This document shows, piece by piece, positions 17,374-29,968 of a DNA stretch of 64,000 nucleotides (its first letter is position 1; every line of letters starts with the position of its first letter). Under the pieces are notes generated by a model. It was not told where the DNA came from and made no database searches. It saw only the letters and a program-made list of their open reading frames with translations. Source of the stretch: Gammaproteobacteria bacterium (GTDB lineage: Bacteria > Pseudomonadota > Gammaproteobacteria > GCA-001735895); assembly GCA_030066085.1 (NCBI GenBank), contig JASJCI010000036.1, positions 62,001 through 126,000 of the forward strand, in the 5' to 3' direction. A program made the position numbers and the translations under genes.

Positions 17374-18846
17374 CTACTTCGGCGACATATCCTGCCAGCT
17401 GAGGCCGGGCGGCGGCGAATAGGAAAAGCCGCCCATTTTGCGTAACACTTCCCGCCTGCCGCCGTGGCGTTCGATCAGTTCGCGTTGCGCGTGCTTGGCC
17501 CTGCGATCCTCGGCTTCCGGATCGAGCCAGTCGCGCAGCAGCGACAGCATGCGCGCCAGCGCCTGTGGATCCTGCGTGGCAATATCGTTGGCTTCGAGCG
17601 GATCGGTTTCCAGGTCGTACAGCTGCGGCGGCATGTCGACGAAGTAGATCAACTTGAGATTACCGTCACGCACCACGTAGCCGGCGTCCAGCGTGCAACA
17701 GCCATGGTACTCCGCGACCAGCGGTTTACGTGCGGGTGACCCGTCGAACAGGCGAAACAGGCTTTCGCCGTACAGCCCGGAGTCGCGTTGGTCGACAGGC
17801 ACTCCACAGGCTTCCAGCAGGGTCGGGAACAGGTCCACGTGGGACACCGGCGTCGCTACCCGCGCGCCCGCCGGCACATCGGGACCGGCCATGATCAGGG
17901 GTACACCAAGCGACTCCTCCAGCAGGTGGAACAGGCCGAAAATATAGTGGTCGCCGCAGCTGAAGCCGTGATCGGAGGTGTAGACGACGCGCGTCGATTC
18001 GGCGAGCCCCTGTTCCTCCAGCGTGTCGAGCAGGCGGCCGACGAGTGCATCGAGGTAAGTCACGGTTGCAAAGTAGGCCGCGCGAATCTGCTGCACCTGT
18101 TCGACGCTACAGTCGTACTCGGTACCGATCGAGCGGCGCAGGTGCTCGATCGACGGATGCCGCGGCCGCTCGTTTTCGGCGAAACGAATCGGCGGCGGCA
18201 GGCTGGCGGGGTCGTACAGGTCGCGGTACTCGCGCGGCACGACGAAGGGAGCATGCGCGGCGATGGTATGTACCGACAGCGCCCAGGGTTTATCGTCGCG
18301 ACCCGCCTCGTCGCGCAGCCAGGCTATCGCCCGCTCGATAATGCGCTCGTCGTAGCGGCGGTAGGGATCCTGGTCGCCGGTACCGTACTGCCGGGTCCAC
18401 AGGTCCCACAGGCCGGGGTAGGTCGGTTCGGCGTGTTCCCAGCGCAGCGCCCCGACCAGGTCGCCGATGCCGTCGGCGATGTGCATGGTCTCGCAGAACT
18501 CGCTGTAACCGTAGTCGTCGGCATCGCGGCGGAAGTGCATCTTGCCCATGCCGGGCGTGTGATAACCGCCCTCGCGCAGGCGTTTCATCCAGCTGTCGAC
18601 GCGGCCGTCGAAAGCCAGCGAACTTTCCCAGTACCCGCTCTGGTGCGGAAATTGCCCGGTGGCTATCGCCGCGCGCGCCGGCACACACAGCGGGCTCGCG
18701 CAGTAGGCTGCATCGAACAGCGTACCGCGGCGCGCGAGGCGATCGAGGTTGGGCGTGTGGATATACGGGTTGCCGAGTGCGCCGAGCAGGTCCGGCGCAT
18801 GGCTTTCAGCGAGAATGAACAGCAGGTTGGCGGGCGCGACGGTCAT
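17374..18846 (-). CDS. Sulfatase-family hydrolase (formylglycine type)
   Basis: A 490-residue alkaline-phosphatase-fold enzyme. Cys54 in SPLCVPARAAIATG fits the C-x-P-x-R signature that is oxidised to formylglycine. HTPNLDRLARRGTLF and VYTSDHGFSCGDH are further sulfatase motifs. The N-terminal metal Asp pair, usually DD or DQ, reads AES (residues 13-15), a notable change. No signal peptide is visible, suggesting a cytoplasmic enzyme, as in choline-sulfatase. No FGE or AtsB maturase gene is in the window. A choline sulfate substrate would suit the betaine theme but is only a guess. Confidence 0.88.
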   Translation of the reverse strand: MTVAPANLLFILAESHAPDLLGALGNPYIHTPNLDRLARRGTLFDAAYCASPLCVPARAAIATGQFPHQSGYWESSLAFDGRVDSWMKRLREGGYHTPGMGKMHFRRDADDYGYSEFCETMHIADGIGDLVGALRWEHAEPTYPGLWDLWTRQYGTGDQDPYRRYDERIIERAIAWLRDEAGRDDKPWALSVHTIAAHAPFVVPREYRDLYDPASLPPPIRFAENERPRHPSIEHLRRSIGTEYDCSVEQVQQIRAAYFATVTYLDALVGRLLDTLEEQGLAESTRVVYTSDHGFSCGDHYIFGLFHLLEESLGVPLIMAGPDVPAGARVATPVSHVDLFPTLLEACGVPVDQRDSGLYGESLFRLFDGSPARKPLVAEYHGCCTLDAGYVVRDGNLKLIYFVDMPPQLYDLETDPLEANDIATQDPQALARMLSLLRDWLDPEAEDRRAKHAQRELIERHGGRREVLRKMGGFSYSPPPGLSWQDMSPK

Positions 18847-21190: not shown

Positions 21191-23179
21191 CTACACCAGT
21201 TCGACATCGCTGACGATTTCGACCAGCGCCGGGCCCTTGTAGGCGAGCGCATCGGCCAGCGCCTTGCCGAGCTGTTCCGGTTTGGTCACCCTGACACCGT
21301 ATCCGCCGCAGAGCTTGGCGTATGCGGCAAAACTCGGGTTGTGCAGGCTGGTCTGCCACACCGGCCATTCACCGGCTCGCTGCTCCTTGGATATCTTGCC
21401 GAGCTCCGAATTGTTGAGCAGCACGTGGGTCATGTTCATCGCGTACTTGACCGCGGTATTGAAGTCGCCCATGTACTGGCCGAAGCCGCCGTCACCGCTG
21501 ATCGAGACGACCTGGCGACCGCGGTACTCGGCGCGATCCTGGGTCGCCGCCCAGGCGCCCATGGCTGCCGGAAAGGAAAAGCCGATCGAACCGAGGTAGC
21601 CCGACATCAGCACGCGCTGGCCACTGCTTTCGAAGTAGCGCCCGAACGAATAGGTATTGTTACCGACATCGACCGCGATGATCGCATCGGCGTCGATGGC
21701 GTCGGCCAGTTCGGCGAACACGATCGAGGAATTGACGCCCGCACCACGGTCGTCGGCGATGCGGCTGGCTTTTTCCGCGCGCCAGATCTGCCAGCGCTCG
21801 GCCAGTTCGTCGCGCTGGTCGACGGCGGCAACCGATTCCGGCAGGGTGCTTTTCAGCATCGCCGTGGTAACGCCGATTTCACCCCAGAGCGGGATCTCGA
21901 CCGGGTGAAACTTGCCCAGCGTCATGCGATCGAAGTCGACCTGGATGATCGGACGCTTCGGTGTGATGCCGGTATGGTTGGAAAACGACGCGCCGAAGGC
22001 CAGGATCAGGTCGCACTCGTTCATGAACCAGCTCGCGACCGGAGTGCCCGAACGCCCGAGCACGCCGGCCGCCAGCGGATGCGCGTCCGGAATCTGGCCC
22101 TTGGCCTTGAACGTGGTCAGCACCGGCGCGTGCAGGGCATCGGCCAGCTCGATGATCTCGGCCATCGAATCGCGCGCGCCGTAGCCGACGACCACGATCG
22201 GCCGCCGGGCGCCCGCGAGCTTGTCGACAGCCTGCTGCAGCACGGCGGCATCGGGCGCGATGCGCGGCACCGAGACCCGTCCGTCCGGCTTGCCGGCTGC
22301 AGCGCTGTCCGCGGCCGGCAGGGTCTGCACGTCGTCCGGGAATATCAGGTGGGCAACGTCGCGTTCGACGATCGCGTTCTTGCAGGCGAGGTTCATCAGC
22401 TCGGCGTGTTTCGACGTGTGCAGCACGGTCTGGCTGAAACGCGCGACCGGCGCGAAGGCGGCGGCAAGATCGATTTCCTGGAACGCGCCCGGACCGAACA
22501 CCTGTGCGTCAACCTGCCCGGTCAGCGCGAGTACCGGCGCGCGGTCGACTTTGGCGTCCCACAGGCCGGTCGTGAGGTTGGTTGCACCCGGTCCGGCAAT
22601 GGCCAGGCAGGCAGCCGGTTTACCGGTGAGCTTGGCGTAGCCGGAGCAGGCAAACGCGGCGGCACCCTCGTGGCGCACGCCGTAATAGCGCAGCCGACCC
22701 TGCTTTTCCTGCAGGCGCAGCGCGTCGGCGAGGCCGAGGTTGGAATGGCCGACCATGCCGAAAACCGAGGTCACGTCCCAGTTGGTCATGGTTTCGGCCA
22801 TGACGTCGGTTACCGTGGTGGCGTGCGGCGCCTCGGCCTCGAGGCCGACGTAGATCCCGTCGGCGCGCACTTCGAGCGGGAATAGCTGCTGCCCGGTGTC
22901 CTCGTGGCCGCCCGGCGGCCGGCCGGTGCGCGGATCGAAATCCCAGCCGTGCCACGGACAGCGCAGCCAGCACTCGCCCCCTTCGCCGCGCTCGATCGAG
23001 CCCTCGCCCAGCGGTCCGCCCTGGTGCGGACAGCGGTTGTCCATCGCGGTGTACTCCCCGTCGATATGCGTCAGCGCCATCGAGTGCGTACCCGCGGTGA
23101 CGGTCTTGACCCGTCCCTCGGGGAGTTCATCGGTTGCGGCAACCTTGTACCACTCCAGCTTCGCATCGGATTCGCTCAT
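21191..23179 (-). CDS. Rieske - thiamine diphosphate enzyme fusion
   Basis: A 662-residue protein with two parts. Residues 1-115 are a Rieske [2Fe-2S] domain: Cys50-Pro-His52 and Cys74-Pro-Trp-His77, the standard CxH and CxxH ligands. From about 120 the chain is a full acetolactate-synthase-type ThDP enzyme: VRHEGAAAFACSGYAKLTGK with the activating Glu, AGPGATNLTTGLWDA, a central domain, and GDGGFGQYMGDFNTAVKY ending in LLNN (the GDG...NN cofactor motif). Such enzymes cleave or join 2-keto acids; the Rieske part implies electron transfer. Downstream of the DUF5996-like gene by about 20 bases. I know of no characterised enzyme with this layout. Confidence 0.9.
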   Translation of the reverse strand: MSESDAKLEWYKVAATDELPEGRVKTVTAGTHSMALTHIDGEYTAMDNRCPHQGGPLGEGSIERGEGGECWLRCPWHGWDFDPRTGRPPGGHEDTGQQLFPLEVRADGIYVGLEAEAPHATTVTDVMAETMTNWDVTSVFGMVGHSNLGLADALRLQEKQGRLRYYGVRHEGAAAFACSGYAKLTGKPAACLAIAGPGATNLTTGLWDAKVDRAPVLALTGQVDAQVFGPGAFQEIDLAAAFAPVARFSQTVLHTSKHAELMNLACKNAIVERDVAHLIFPDDVQTLPAADSAAAGKPDGRVSVPRIAPDAAVLQQAVDKLAGARRPIVVVGYGARDSMAEIIELADALHAPVLTTFKAKGQIPDAHPLAAGVLGRSGTPVASWFMNECDLILAFGASFSNHTGITPKRPIIQVDFDRMTLGKFHPVEIPLWGEIGVTTAMLKSTLPESVAAVDQRDELAERWQIWRAEKASRIADDRGAGVNSSIVFAELADAIDADAIIAVDVGNNTYSFGRYFESSGQRVLMSGYLGSIGFSFPAAMGAWAATQDRAEYRGRQVVSISGDGGFGQYMGDFNTAVKYAMNMTHVLLNNSELGKISKEQRAGEWPVWQTSLHNPSFAAYAKLCGGYGVRVTKPEQLGKALADALAYKGPALVEIVSDVELV

Positions 23180-23198: not shown

Positions 23199-24032
23199 TC
23201 AGTCGCCGAGCCTGCGCCGGCCTTCGTCGAGCAATGCTTGCCATTGCGCTAGCAGCGCGGCCGCCGCATCGGGACCCTCGCGAAGGCTTGCATAGCGCCA
23301 GACCATACCGGTAAAACCTTCGCGGTACCATTCGGCACCATCGACGAGCGCGGTCTCGGGGAAACCTTCCGGCAGCGGGTAAGCAGTGGCGTAAAAGTAA
23401 GGCTCCGACAGCATCGAGTCGCCGAAGGTGAAGCCAAAATTCATTTGCCGGTCGGCGAATTCCTCGTCGGCCGGATCCTGGCCCTCGATCTTGCCGCCCG
23501 CTAACCAGAGCATGGCGAGGTCGAAGTGGTGCGGCCACAGGCCGATCGGTCCGGCTTCCTCGCGGATAGCGGCGCGCAGCCGGTCGAGCACGACAGCGGT
23601 CGTGGCAAGGGCCCGGCCGAGCCTGGAGGCTTGTTCACTGGAGTAACCCGAAAACCCCGTCTCGCTCACCGGCGGCGCTGGCAACCGCGCGCTCGGCAGC
23701 CCGGCATCGACCAGGAACGCCTGCAGTTCCGTGGCCAGGGTAGCGGCCGGTTGCCCGTGTAATACCCGGGTCCAGTGCTCACCGCGCGCGGTACGGGCAA
23801 TCAGCTGGCTCGTGCGCAGATCGAGCTCGATTTCGAAATCGAGCGGGCCGGCATAAACCACGCCGGTGGTGGCGCCATGCAGCGATAGCCTCAGGCTCGC
23901 GTGCCACCAGTGTTTGCGGCGTGCGCGGCATGCCTTGAGGTAGTCGCCGAGGATTTTACTGTAGGCCTGCAGCGCGTCGCGGGTGTTTTCGAATTCGCCG
24001 GCAACGAGGCCCGGGAATCCGTGATCCGTCAT
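23199..24032 (-). CDS. DUF5996-like protein
   Basis: A 277-residue soluble protein. Residues 30-60 (YSKILGDYLKACRARRKHWWHASLRLSL) and the later GPIGLWPHHFDLAMLWLAGG and YFYATAYPLPEGFPE segments match the DUF5996 pattern, a bacterial family without known function. HWWH and WPHHFD could supply metal or cofactor ligands. The ATG at 24032 sits one base after the TGA of the Rieske-GltS gene, and the Rieske-ThDP gene starts 20 bases after its stop. This tight spacing makes it part of the operon and suggests it aids or acts with the two Rieske enzymes. Confidence 0.8.
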   Translation of the reverse strand: MTDHGFPGLVAGEFENTRDALQAYSKILGDYLKACRARRKHWWHASLRLSLHGATTGVVYAGPLDFEIELDLRTSQLIARTARGEHWTRVLHGQPAATLATELQAFLVDAGLPSARLPAPPVSETGFSGYSSEQASRLGRALATTAVVLDRLRAAIREEAGPIGLWPHHFDLAMLWLAGGKIEGQDPADEEFADRQMNFGFTFGDSMLSEPYFYATAYPLPEGFPETALVDGAEWYREGFTGMVWRYASLREGPDAAAALLAQWQALLDEGRRRLGD

Positions 24033-24033
24033 G

Positions 24034-25656
24034 TCAACGTTCCCCATCGAAATCGACGCCGCCGTAGGCAACGCCGCTCAGGCGCGTCATGTCGGTATCG
24101 AAAGTGGTCAGGTCTTCGCGGTTGAACTTCGACAGGTGATCGTGGCCCGCGGCCCGCGCCAGCACCTTCATCAGGTCGACCGCGGCGCCGAAAAACCGCG
24201 CGAGGCGCTCGGCCGCCTCGTCGACCGGCAAGCGGTCGCGCAGGTGGGGCTTCTGGGTCGCGATTCCGACCGGGCAATTGTTGCTGTTGCACGCGCGCAT
24301 CCCGAGGCAGCCGATTGCCTGCAGCGCGGCGTTCGAGAGTGCGATGCCGTCGGCGCCGAGCGCCAGCGCCTTGGCAAAATCGGCCGGGTGACGCAGGCCG
24401 CCGGTGATGATCAGCGTAACACCGTCCGCATCACAGCGATCCAGGTGGCGGCGCGCCCGCGCCAGTGCCGGGATCGTCGGCACCGAGATATGGTCACGAA
24501 AAATCAGCGGCGCGGCGCCGGTGCCGCCGCCTCGACCGTCGAGAATCACGTAATCGACACCAATTTCGAGCGCCGCGTCGAGATCCTTCTCGATGTGTTG
24601 CGCCGACAGTTTGAAACCGACCGGGATACCGCCGGTACGTTCGCGCACCTCGGTGGCGAAGTCGCGGTACTGCTCAAGCGAAGTCCAGTCAGGAAAACGC
24701 GCCGGGGATATCGCGGACTGACCTTCCGGCAAGTTGCGCACCTCGGCAATCTTGCCCTTGACCTTGTTGCCGGGCAGGTGCCCCCCGGTGCCGGTCTTGG
24801 CGCCCTGCCCACCCTTGAAGTGGAAAGCCTGGGTTTTTTCGACCTTGTCCCAGGAAAAGCCGAAACGCGCCGAGGCAAGCTCGTAAAAGTAGCGTGAATT
24901 AGCCGCCTGCTCTTCCGGTAACATGCCACCCTCACCCGAACAAATGCCGGTGCCGGCCAGCTCGGCACCTTTCGCCAGCGCCACCTTGGCTTCTTCGGAC
25001 AGCGCGCCGAAACTCATATCGGAAACGAACAGCGGGATATCCAGTCGAAGCGGTCTCGACGCATTCGGACCAATGACGATATCGCTGCCGACCGGGTCTT
25101 CGTCGAGCAGCGGCAGTCTGGCTAACTGGCCGACCACAAACTGGATATCGTCCCACTTCGGCAGCTGATCGCGCGGTACTCCCATGGCATCGGACGGGCC
25201 GTGGTGGCCGGTTTTGTCCAGGCCTTCCGAAGCCAGCTTGCGAATGAACTTGACCCAGGGTTCGTCCACCGTCCCCGTCAGATCCTGGTAAGCACCCTGG
25301 TAACTGTCACGCTGGTACGGCTGTGGATTCTCCTCGGCCCAGGCCCGGATTTGATCTTCGTCGACGCAGACCTGGCCATCCTCGATCCAGGCGGTGAACT
25401 TGTGCAGGATCTCGCTGTTGTTGTACTCGCTGACGCCGCTATCCATGCGGTAGTCCCAGTGATGCACGCCGCAGATCAGGTTGTGACCGGACACGTAGCC
25501 GTCGGCCATCAGCGCACCGCGATGCGCGCAGCGCCCGTAGAGTACGCTGAGCTCGTCGTCGAATCGCAGGACCACGAGGTCGACATCGGCGACCAGCGCA
25601 TGGGTTGGCTTGCGGTCGGCCAGGTCGTCCCAGCTCAGCAGGGCTAGCTTTTTCAT
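24034..25656 (-). CDS. Rieske - glutamate synthase-type (FMN, 3Fe-4S) fusion
   Basis: A 540-residue protein. N-terminal Rieske-like domain: Cys43-x-His45 (GRCAHRGAL) and Cys62-x-x-His65 (CGVHHW). Residues about 190-520 are the FMN-binding domain of glutamate synthase: DMSFGALSEEAKVALAKGAE, GICSGEGGML, HFKGGQGAKTGTGGHLPG, VDYVILDGRGGGTGAAP, and Cys450-x5-Cys456-x4-Cys461 matching the [3Fe-4S] ligand spacing of GltB. The glutaminase and central domains of GltB are absent. Related stand-alone domains include MgsC, the catalytic subunit of N-methylglutamate synthase. It heads the operon; an amine-to-glutamate type reaction is possible but unproven. Confidence 0.9.
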   Translation of the reverse strand: MKKLALLSWDDLADRKPTHALVADVDLVVLRFDDELSVLYGRCAHRGALMADGYVSGHNLICGVHHWDYRMDSGVSEYNNSEILHKFTAWIEDGQVCVDEDQIRAWAEENPQPYQRDSYQGAYQDLTGTVDEPWVKFIRKLASEGLDKTGHHGPSDAMGVPRDQLPKWDDIQFVVGQLARLPLLDEDPVGSDIVIGPNASRPLRLDIPLFVSDMSFGALSEEAKVALAKGAELAGTGICSGEGGMLPEEQAANSRYFYELASARFGFSWDKVEKTQAFHFKGGQGAKTGTGGHLPGNKVKGKIAEVRNLPEGQSAISPARFPDWTSLEQYRDFATEVRERTGGIPVGFKLSAQHIEKDLDAALEIGVDYVILDGRGGGTGAAPLIFRDHISVPTIPALARARRHLDRCDADGVTLIITGGLRHPADFAKALALGADGIALSNAALQAIGCLGMRACNSNNCPVGIATQKPHLRDRLPVDEAAERLARFFGAAVDLMKVLARAAGHDHLSKFNREDLTTFDTDMTRLSGVAYGGVDFDGER

Positions 25657-27673: not shown

Positions 27674-28831
27674 CTATACGGCCCGTTCTTGCATGAAATG
27701 CAGGTAGGTTTCGTGGAAATGGCGCAGCATGACCTCGGAAATCTCCTGGTTGTCCGGATCGATCATGTACCAGCCGTGCTCGAAGCAGCGCTGCGACATG
27801 CCTTCGTGCACCGATTCCATGAACGCGATGTCTTCCTGCTGCAGGACGTCGCGCGCCCAGGCCGTGCGCAGCTCGCGCCGCTCGAGCATGCCGGGATCCG
27901 TCGGCTCGGCAATGTCGAGCTGCACGATATCGCGATAGGCCCGATCCATTCCGCGCGGCGTCCACTGCGACAGTGACAGGTTACCCGGCCCGGCGAACTG
28001 GGCCAGCGCGATGTTCGGAAACAGGTGCCAGAAATGCAGGTCCATGACGTCGTGTTCGGGCAGCAGCGGGTACGCCTTGTTGTCCACCTTGCCGGACGAT
28101 GGAATAAACACGTAGCTGTAGTTCGGATGTAGCGTCTGCTTCTGCCTGGCTACGTCCAGCATATCGGCAAAAGATTCATGGCCGATGCGGCAGTGGTAAC
28201 ACTCGAGAAAATTATCGACCTGGATTTTCCAGTTGGCCTTTACATCCACCGAGTGCAGCGCCGACGCCTGTGCGCTGAGCTGGTAACGATCCAGATCCGG
28301 AATGGCGGATTTGACCTGCTCCTCGAGACCGGGCCAGAAGTCCGCAATCGGTTCCGCACCCGGGTCGAGATTGACGAAGACGAAGTCGAACAGGCGGTCG
28401 ACGCGTACCGGCGCCAGGCAGATCGCGCTGACATCGGGGGTTTCACTGCTCGCGGTGCTGCGATCGTGCCGCAACTTGCCATCGAGCGAATAACTCCACT
28501 GGTGATAGGGACAGACGATGACCTTCTTGTGTCCCGCGCCCTCCAGCAGCTTGTGACCACGATGTGGACAGACATTGTAGAAAGCCTTCAGCTCTCCGTC
28601 GCGATCGCGCACGACGAAAACGTTCTGCCCCATGATTTCGGTCGCCACGTAGGCGCCGTGACCGTCGAGTTGGTCGATGTGGCAGGCGTACTGCCAGGAC
28701 CTGAAGAACACCTGCTCACGTTCGCGTGCCAGCACGTCGGCCTCGACGTAGTAGCGCGCGGGCAGCGCGCGCAGTCGATCGTTCGGCGCGAAGTCAAAAC
28801 AGGCGGGTTGTTGCACTACCCTCGACGTCAT
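27674..28831 (-). CDS. Rieske oxygenase of quaternary-amine type (GbcA/CntA/choline monooxygenase-like)
   Basis: A 385-residue oxygenase alpha subunit. ATG 28831 has GAGGAGGG five bases upstream. Rieske ligands: Cys88-Pro-His90 and Cys107-Pro-Tyr-His110. Mononuclear iron site: DNFLECYHCRIGH with His213 and His218 and Glu210 at the bridging position, where most Rieske oxygenases have Asp; the LECYHC variant marks the choline, glycine betaine, carnitine and stachydrine group. These enzymes demethylate or hydroxylate quaternary amines using O2. The needed flavin reductase is not adjacent. It is divergent from a GbdR-like regulator. Confidence 0.9.
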   Translation of the reverse strand: MTSRVVQQPACFDFAPNDRLRALPARYYVEADVLAREREQVFFRSWQYACHIDQLDGHGAYVATEIMGQNVFVVRDRDGELKAFYNVCPHRGHKLLEGAGHKKVIVCPYHQWSYSLDGKLRHDRSTASSETPDVSAICLAPVRVDRLFDFVFVNLDPGAEPIADFWPGLEEQVKSAIPDLDRYQLSAQASALHSVDVKANWKIQVDNFLECYHCRIGHESFADMLDVARQKQTLHPNYSYVFIPSSGKVDNKAYPLLPEHDVMDLHFWHLFPNIALAQFAGPGNLSLSQWTPRGMDRAYRDIVQLDIAEPTDPGMLERRELRTAWARDVLQQEDIAFMESVHEGMSQRCFEHGWYMIDPDNQEISEVMLRHFHETYLHFMQERAV

Positions 28832-28975: not shown

Positions 28976-29968
28976 GTGCCTAAACAGACACTTTTGCCTG
29001 ACAGTCACAGCGAGCCTTGCGAGGTGCTTATCCTGCTGGTACCGCGCTACTCGCAACTGACGCTGGCGGCGCTGGTCGAGCCGTTGCGCATGGCGAATAC
29101 CGTGGCGAACCGACAGCTCTACCACTGGCGCCTGTGCAGCGAGGACGGAGACCCGGTGACTTCCAGCAGTGGTTTTACCCTCGCGGTCGACGAGGACATT
29201 GCTGGCAACAGCAATTTCGACACCCTGTTCGCGCTTGCCAGCTATGACGTCACGCAGTTTGCCACGGCGCGCATCAACGCTTTTCTGAAACGATCAGCGC
29301 GCAGCGGCGCAATCGTCGGCGGCCTGGATGCGGCGCCCTACCTGCTGGCCAGCGCGGGATTGCTCGACGGTCACCGCGCCACCACGCACTGGGATGAACT
29401 CGAGGATTTCCGCGTTCGTTACCCGCGTATCGACGTAGTACCCGAACGTTACGTGATCGATCGCCAGCGCATCACGACCAGCGGGTCGTTACCGTCTTTC
29501 GACCTGGTGCTCGAATTCATTCGCCGGCGCAATGGCCTGATGCTGGCAATGAACGTGTCGGGTAATTTCCTTTACGACCAGGCAAGGCCTGGCTCCGAAT
29601 CGCAGTACATGATTGCCGCGTCGCTGATCAACGCGCGTCACCCGATGATCTCGCGGGTTGTTCACCTGATGGAACGTAACCTGCGTTCGCCACTCGGCAT
29701 ATCGCAGCTGGCCGCGGCGGTCGGTCTCAGCGAGCGTTCGCTGCTGCGCCGGTTTCGCGCAACCCTCGGCATCGGTCCTCGTCAGTATTACCGCGCACTG
29801 CGACTCGATGCCGGCAGACGCCTGCTCGACAACAGCGATCTCAGCGTGACCGAGATCGCGATCGCCTGCGGTTTCGATTCGCGCGGATCATTTACCCGTG
29901 CATTCAGGCAGGTATTCGGGATCCCGCCGTCAGCGCAGCGGCCGGCAGGGCGGTTCGACCGCCGCTAA
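28976..29968 (+). CDS. GlxA/GbdR-like AraC-family regulator
   Basis: A 330-residue regulator with an N-terminal DJ-1/GATase1-like ligand domain (CEVLILLVPRYSQLTLAALV; GAIVGGLDAAPYLLASAGLL) and a C-terminal AraC double HTH (ISQLAAAVGLSERSLLRRF; VTEIAIACGFDSRGSFTRAF). This architecture is shared by GbdR and CdhR, which sense glycine betaine/dimethylglycine or carnitine-related compounds. Start is GTG 28976. It is divergent from the Rieske oxygenase across 144 bases, which strongly suggests it regulates that gene in response to the quaternary amine or its product. Confidence 0.9.
   Translation: MPKQTLLPDSHSEPCEVLILLVPRYSQLTLAALVEPLRMANTVANRQLYHWRLCSEDGDPVTSSSGFTLAVDEDIAGNSNFDTLFALASYDVTQFATARINAFLKRSARSGAIVGGLDAAPYLLASAGLLDGHRATTHWDELEDFRVRYPRIDVVPERYVIDRQRITTSGSLPSFDLVLEFIRRRNGLMLAMNVSGNFLYDQARPGSESQYMIAASLINARHPMISRVVHLMERNLRSPLGISQLAAAVGLSERSLLRRFRATLGIGPRQYYRALRLDAGRRLLDNSDLSVTEIAIACGFDSRGSFTRAFRQVFGIPPSAQRPAGRFDRR

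Follow-up and report, generated by a model that had tools for sequence, protein, structure and literature searches.

What is a Rieske [2Fe-2S] domain doing in front of a complete ThDP enzyme, and is the join between the two real? The question is raised by one gene in a 64,000-nucleotide stretch of a gammaproteobacterial contig (GenBank JASJCI010000036.1, positions 62,001 to 126,000), which we refer to as the window. We examined whether the fused architecture is conserved, which ThDP enzymes it most resembles, which genes travel with it, and where electrons from such a protein would be likely to go.

Architecture and distribution of the Rieske-ThDP fusion

The open reading frame starts with ATG and runs for 662 codons with zero internal stops (Table 1). 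The initial annotation had read it as a Rieske domain placed in front of a complete ThDP enzyme, and this architecture is borne out by Pfam, by the single frame and by conservation in 86 aligned sequences. The Rieske part matches PF00355 at residues 9 to 87 with 68 bits (gathering cut-off 20.3) and is joined to the Pyr domain by a linker of only ∼9 residues. The ThDP part contains the three domains of the superfamily together with the activating Glu and the GDG...NN motif that had been noted from the sequence, and the fold of the AF2 model (pLDDT 90.6, pTM 0.86) agrees with this assignment.

Table 1. Features of the fusion gene, its neighbors and related loci. Positions without a locus prefix are those of the window; residue numbers are those of the encoded protein.
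Feature	Position	Strand	Evidence
Rieske-ThDP fusion gene, 662 aa	21191..23179	(-)	single open frame; Pfam Rieske + TPP_enzyme N/M/C; full length kept in 86 sequences
Rieske [2Fe-2S] domain, residues 9-113	22841..23155	(-)	PF00355, E 6.8e-19; solved relatives 3d89, 1fqt; AF2-model strands 8-14 to 108-114
First ligand pair, C50-P51-H52	23024..23032	(-)	C50 and H52 invariant, 86/86
Second ligand pair, C74-P-W-H77	22949..22960	(-)	C74 and H77 invariant, 86/86
ThDP enzyme N (Pyr) domain, residues 122-239	22463..22816	(-)	PF02776, E 5.8e-32
Activating Glu, E171	22667-22669	(-)	86/86 sequences
ThDP enzyme middle domain, residues 314-440	21860..22240	(-)	PF00205, E 8.7e-33; domain in which POX/AHAS relatives have their FAD site
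ThDP enzyme C (PP) domain, residues 504-655	21215..21670	(-)	PF02775, E 8.2e-33
ThDP/Mg motif, GDGG (562-565) ... NN (589-590)	21410-21496	(-)	sequence motif
Active-site segment, K595-I-S-K-E599	21383..21397	(-)	profile alignment to L. plantarum POX and its F479W variant; K595 and E599 invariant, 86/86
DUF5996 protein gene, between the two Rieske fusion genes	23199..24071	(-)	PF19459, E 5.5e-33; recurs in ∼17 related loci (10 + 7)
Partner gene, N-terminal Rieske + glutamate-synthase FMN domain, 540 aa	24034..25656	(-)	Pfam Rieske + Glu_synthase; GltS-type Cys motif
CDGSH-bearing fusion clade	L055:9722-11956, L064:9635-11968, L067, L093, L013, L015		
Ferric-reductase-like transmembrane + Rieske protein, example	L045:6705-7769		

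Scanning genome contigs with Rieske-derived patterns identified 80 loci in which the match, at ∼64 to 81% identity, is full-length or nearly so; whole-genome searches supplied additional members. The domain pair recurs with the same architecture throughout the 86 aligned sequences, and C50, H52, C74, H77, E171, GDG, N590, K595 and E599 are invariant in all of them, the CxH and CxxH ligands lying at exactly the residues (50/52 and 74/77) originally assigned. The fusion loci belong to Gamma- and Alphaproteobacteria, Acidobacteriota, Nitrospinota, Nitrospirota, Calditrichota and Cyanobacteriota, plus one Actinomycetota-labeled MAG (L018) that is possibly misbinned, and the names of many isolates and MAG sources point to a marine origin. 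Five further members were found in a collection of 72,556 plasmids, four on haloarchaeal plasmids (60 to 62% identity) and one on a plasmid of Mycobacteroides abscessus (53% identity); all five are annotated merely as 'thiamine pyrophosphate-binding protein', and the Rieske ligand motif is the same in the four of them that were read. Judged by these sequences, the fusion is a family common to marine bacteria and salt-loving archaea.

Because the patterns used in the contig scan derive from the Rieske domain, unfused close relatives would be invisible to it, and these were sought instead with a ThDP-only query in 398 genomes of the phylum and with a search of the class. Neither search found a close relative of the ThDP part that lacks the Rieske part: in the 398 genomes the matches at 66 to 67% identity were all fused, and the next relatives, at 31 to 36%, were unfused; one additional hit (L014) is a fragment that lies at the end of a contig. 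A frameshift, a misassembly or a gene-prediction artifact that joins two separate genes is ruled out, since the cluster ligands and the frame are conserved across phyla and domains; the 86 sequences all share one continuous frame, as do the homologues on four archaeal plasmids and a mycobacterial one. We found nothing in favor of such an artifact and assign this explanation a negligible probability. That the fusion is genuine, with a predicted cluster site that is intact, is thus well supported.

The closest solved relatives of the Rieske domain are a small Rieske protein (3d89) and the Rieske ferredoxins of aromatic dioxygenases, such as 1fqt. The domain does not contain the second Cys pair of bc1-type Rieske proteins, which we take to point to a low-potential cluster. 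Its similarity to dioxygenase ferredoxins, and a GbcA-like Rieske oxygenase gene ∼4.5 kb away in the window, raise the possibility that the domain serves another protein, for example as the ferredoxin of the neighboring oxygenase, and is simply parked covalently on the ThDP enzyme. However, related loci do not keep the oxygenase in the vicinity of the fusion and, among close relatives, the ThDP part is never found without the Rieske part, and we consider this arrangement improbable.

The oxygenase gene (27674-28822) is accompanied in the window by a choline-sulfatase-like gene (17374-18846) and an AraC-type regulator (28976-29968), a possible betaine/choline theme that is likewise not conserved with the fusion elsewhere. 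A role tied to a nearby Rieske oxygenase, ion channel, FIST protein, sulfatase or methyltransferase was rejected, as none of these is conserved beside the fusion. The same genome encodes a further Rieske fusion on another contig, C12 (L174:1504-3114), with the Rieske domain at residues 19 to 91 of 537 and the other ∼420 residues without a Pfam family.

Relation of the ThDP part to pyruvate oxidases and acetolactate synthases

The initial annotation described the catalytic part as an acetolactate-synthase-type ThDP enzyme. The ThDP-enzyme assignment stands, but the profiles place PoxB and pyruvate oxidase closer than acetolactate synthase. The top NCBIfam models are pyruvate oxidases, all of them scoring far under their cut-offs (NF006377, 380 bits versus a cut-off of 742; NF006591 (PoxB), 305 versus 792; TIGR02720, 271 versus 638). 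Acetolactate synthase shares the superfamily and the domain order with the fusion but has no Fe-S head, and the score against the model of its large subunit, TIGR00118, is 287 bits versus a cut-off of 538, so that acetolactate synthase proper was rejected. No regulatory small-subunit gene of AHAS was recognized among the recurrent neighbor clusters of the 80 loci, in which single genes were not all identified. With the family profile, the best solved relative by sequence is Escherichia coli PoxB, at 299.7 bits versus 259 for POX and AHAS I. On these scores, PoxB/pyruvate oxidase is a nearer relative of the ThDP part than acetolactate synthase is, but no curated family cut-off is reached.

Structural comparison gives a similar but less discriminating picture. 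The best Foldseek match of the AF2 model is PoxB, with a TM score of 0.92 on the target, and E. coli PoxB (3eya) and C. glutamicum PQO (9ev4-9ev6) share its three-domain ThDP fold. Using VIA-align, however, PoxB, PQO, acetolactate synthase, HKA synthase and other ThDP enzymes are about level (Z 42 to 44), and because PoxB is not separated from the others the fold alone does not decide between oxidative and non-oxidative chemistry. PoxB and PQO are redox enzymes in which oxidative 2-oxoacid decarboxylation feeds a membrane acceptor. The fusion differs from PoxB, with which it shares 28% identity, in its N-terminal Rieske head and in having a Lys close to ThDP where POX and PoxB have a Phe. The alignment of the family profile with PoxB stops at residue 528 of 572, which leaves nothing in the fusion that corresponds to PoxB's C-terminal membrane segment.

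The comparison with L. plantarum POX (1pow, 1y9d, 4fee), an O2-using FAD enzyme without Fe-S clusters, is equally mixed. The ThDP motifs are shared, the middle domain is similar, and POX Glu483 is kept as E599, whereas Phe479, which in POX sits between ThDP and FAD, is replaced by K595 (profile alignment, 86 of 86 sequences); only the Glu of this active-site pair is therefore retained. In the middle domain, G332, G334, A335, G375, G396, F399 and D415 are invariant in the 86-sequence alignment, and we take the Gly and Asp positions to be those of the FAD pocket in relatives. The best PDB matches to the middle domain alone mix FAD and non-FAD enzymes, many of them FAD enzymes of the AHAS/POX group. 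The 2-oxoacid:ferredoxin oxidoreductases (OFOR) also combine ThDP with Fe-S clusters for oxidative decarboxylation, but they are another ThDP enzyme family, are CoA-dependent and carry [4Fe-4S] clusters.

Given that KpALS, HKA synthase, PDC and other non-oxidative enzymes have this fold and score about as well in structural comparison, the Rieske domain could instead sense redox state or oxygen and so gate a ThDP enzyme without oxidative chemistry, either a 2-oxoacid decarboxylase or an acetolactate-type carboligase, the cluster switching activity and carrying no catalytic electrons. The invariant Lys595 in place of POX Phe479 could in that case mean that the POX electron path has been lost. 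On the other hand, the flavoenzyme encoded next door, the tandem CDGSH pair of one clade and the Rieske membrane protein described below look more like serial electron carriers than sensors, and we regard sensing as unlikely. Oxidative decarboxylation with outward electron flow is favored because of the nearness to PoxB and POX and the conserved POX-type E599.

A GltS-type partner and the exchange of Fe-S heads

Upstream of the fusion gene lies a second gene with an N-terminal Rieske domain, here in front of a glutamate-synthase FMN domain. Alignment to GltS identifies the Cys motif GCxxMRAC....CPVGxATQ. A GltS-type gene is within reach of the fusion in 38 of the 79 loci with a placed anchor, in many cases within 60 bp, a count that ignores shared descent; nearly all of these genes carry a Rieske head, and the one at L055 carries a tandem CDGSH head. 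In a set of 369 gammaproteobacterial genomes, counting only GltS matches that include the Rieske part, Rieske-GltS was present in 5 of 7 genomes with the fusion versus 9 of 362 without it (Fisher p 7e-7, relatedness ignored). Full-length Rieske-GltS occurs on only 3 of the 72,556 plasmids, and all three also carry the fusion; on a Salinirubellus archaeal plasmid the two genes are <2 kb apart. The fusion is absent from four plasmids of marine bacteria on which the GltS match begins only beyond the Rieske part. The partner was not found in 19 of the 43 fusion-carrying genomes searched, mostly those whose loci have no adjacent partner and many of them incomplete MAGs, which indicates that the pair is not obligatory.

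The intervening DUF5996 gene, whose listed start overlaps the end of the partner gene, is separated from the fusion gene by 19 bp. Its product has a conserved PHHxD motif, and its AF2 model (pLDDT 89) gave no Foldseek match in the PDB at E 0.001 or better.

The Fe-S heads have been exchanged between relatives of the ThDP enzyme and of its GltS partner. One fusion clade of six members (SH-aLRT 99) carries a tandem CDGSH pair ahead of the Rieske domain, which gives its ThDP enzymes up to three predicted [2Fe-2S] sites per protein, and at L055 tandem CDGSH is present on both the GltS partner and the ThDP enzyme. Among the genomes, the GltS-type partner is Rieske-headed in, for example, G000, G093, G167, G206 and G405, and tandem-CDGSH-headed in G154, G265, G286, G291 and G361. 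The matching of heads is loose: the genome of L093 encodes Rieske-GltS together with a CDGSH-Rieske-ThDP enzyme, and in G286 CDGSH-GltS accompanies a ThDP enzyme that has the Rieske head alone. Type 5 CISD proteins combine tandem CDGSH domains and a glutamate synthase FMN domain in a single fused protein (Lin et al. 2011, PMC3174974; see also PMC5859297), and the account in PMC3174974 makes no mention of Rieske, thiamine or acetolactate. Relatives of the partner gene (such as L101-L105 and L146) have this type 5 architecture; in the window partner and at most fusion-linked loci a Rieske domain stands in place of the CDGSH pair.

The pair could also form a closed circuit, in which the ThDP enzyme would supply electrons and the GltS-type flavoenzyme would consume them. 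Reductive amination would then be powered by 2-oxoacid oxidation by way of the [2Fe-2S] heads, with no need for NAD(P)H or soluble ferredoxin. Consistent with this, the genes adjoin, often at the short distances given above, the two proteins bear matching head types (most clearly at L055), and the GltS part retains the Cys motif that binds the [3Fe-4S] cluster in GltS. The several fusion genomes that show no GltS partner speak against such an internal couple, as does a ferric-reductase-like Rieske protein near many loci that suggests an exit of electrons to the membrane, and we think it quite unlikely.

Proposed route of electrons and its implications

This ferric-reductase-like membrane protein, with a C-terminal Rieske domain, is encoded near 27 loci, many of them alphaproteobacterial. 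A search of ten gammaproteobacterial genomes, that of the window among them, gave no match to it at E 1e-15; the set contained no positive control. A membrane-anchored protein of ∼258 residues is encoded near 26 loci, 22 of which also have the ferric-reductase-Rieske protein; it has zero matches in Pfam or NCBIfam and a conserved D-x-K-C...H-x2-C-A-x2-C motif (L086:8912-9688). A cation/proton antiporter gene is near 23 loci, and one lies ∼3 kb from the fusion gene on the M. abscessus plasmid. On three haloarchaeal plasmids (NZ_CP078064.1, NZ_CP053942.1 and NZ_CP147842.1; L180, L181 and L183) the fusion is near genes annotated as mercury(II) reductase or dihydrolipoyl dehydrogenase, and two of the three plasmids also have TauE/SafE exporters nearby.

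We propose, with slightly better than even confidence, that the fusion is a POX-type oxidative 2-oxoacid decarboxylase whose Rieske head exports electrons and which works with the GltS-type flavoenzyme. POX passes its electrons to O2, and PoxB passes them to ubiquinone, aided by its C-terminal membrane peptide. In the fusion, a 2-oxoacid would be decarboxylated on ThDP, and the two electrons of the ThDP intermediate would pass singly to the enzyme's own N-terminal cluster, perhaps via an FAD in the middle domain. From the Rieske head they would go to an outside acceptor, in place of O2 or the direct reduction of ubiquinone. The neighboring flavoenzyme, Rieske-headed here and with tandem CDGSH elsewhere, would exchange electrons with the same acceptor, a role that in many alphaproteobacteria probably falls to the ferric-reductase-like membrane protein. 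We infer the outward direction because a Rieske-headed flavoenzyme is encoded next door and a Rieske-bearing membrane protein in many related loci.

More broadly, and as a tentative suggestion that we hold to be possible rather than probable, the loci may encode a hitherto undescribed redox module common to bacteria and archaea. Its ThDP 2-oxoacid enzyme and GltS-type flavoenzyme would bear interchangeable [2Fe-2S] heads, of the Rieske or the tandem CDGSH kind, and would feed electrons to one shared acceptor. In many alphaproteobacteria this acceptor would be a ferric-reductase-like cytochrome that itself contains a Rieske domain, and the module would amount to a 2-oxoacid:Rieske oxidoreductase branch of respiration.

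Each part of the protein comes from a known family, and the combination is new. A full-text literature search whose coverage leaves out most subscription journals found no paper on the Rieske-ThDP fusion, its pairing with Rieske-GltS or the combinations with CDGSH; given that scope, this absence is weak evidence of novelty. Members occur in named isolates such as Labrenzia sp. THAF82, Stappia sp. BW2 and Haloferax larsenii, which makes the family experimentally approachable. ThDP 2-oxoacid oxidases with FAD are known, as are ferredoxin-linked ones with [4Fe-4S] clusters; a Rieske head attached covalently to a POX-type enzyme would represent a different route for electrons out of the ThDP intermediate. 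Two groups of poorly understood proteins, the type 5 CDGSH (mitoNEET-like) glutamate-synthase fusions and the ferric-reductase-Rieske membrane proteins, may also gain a context from the linked genes.
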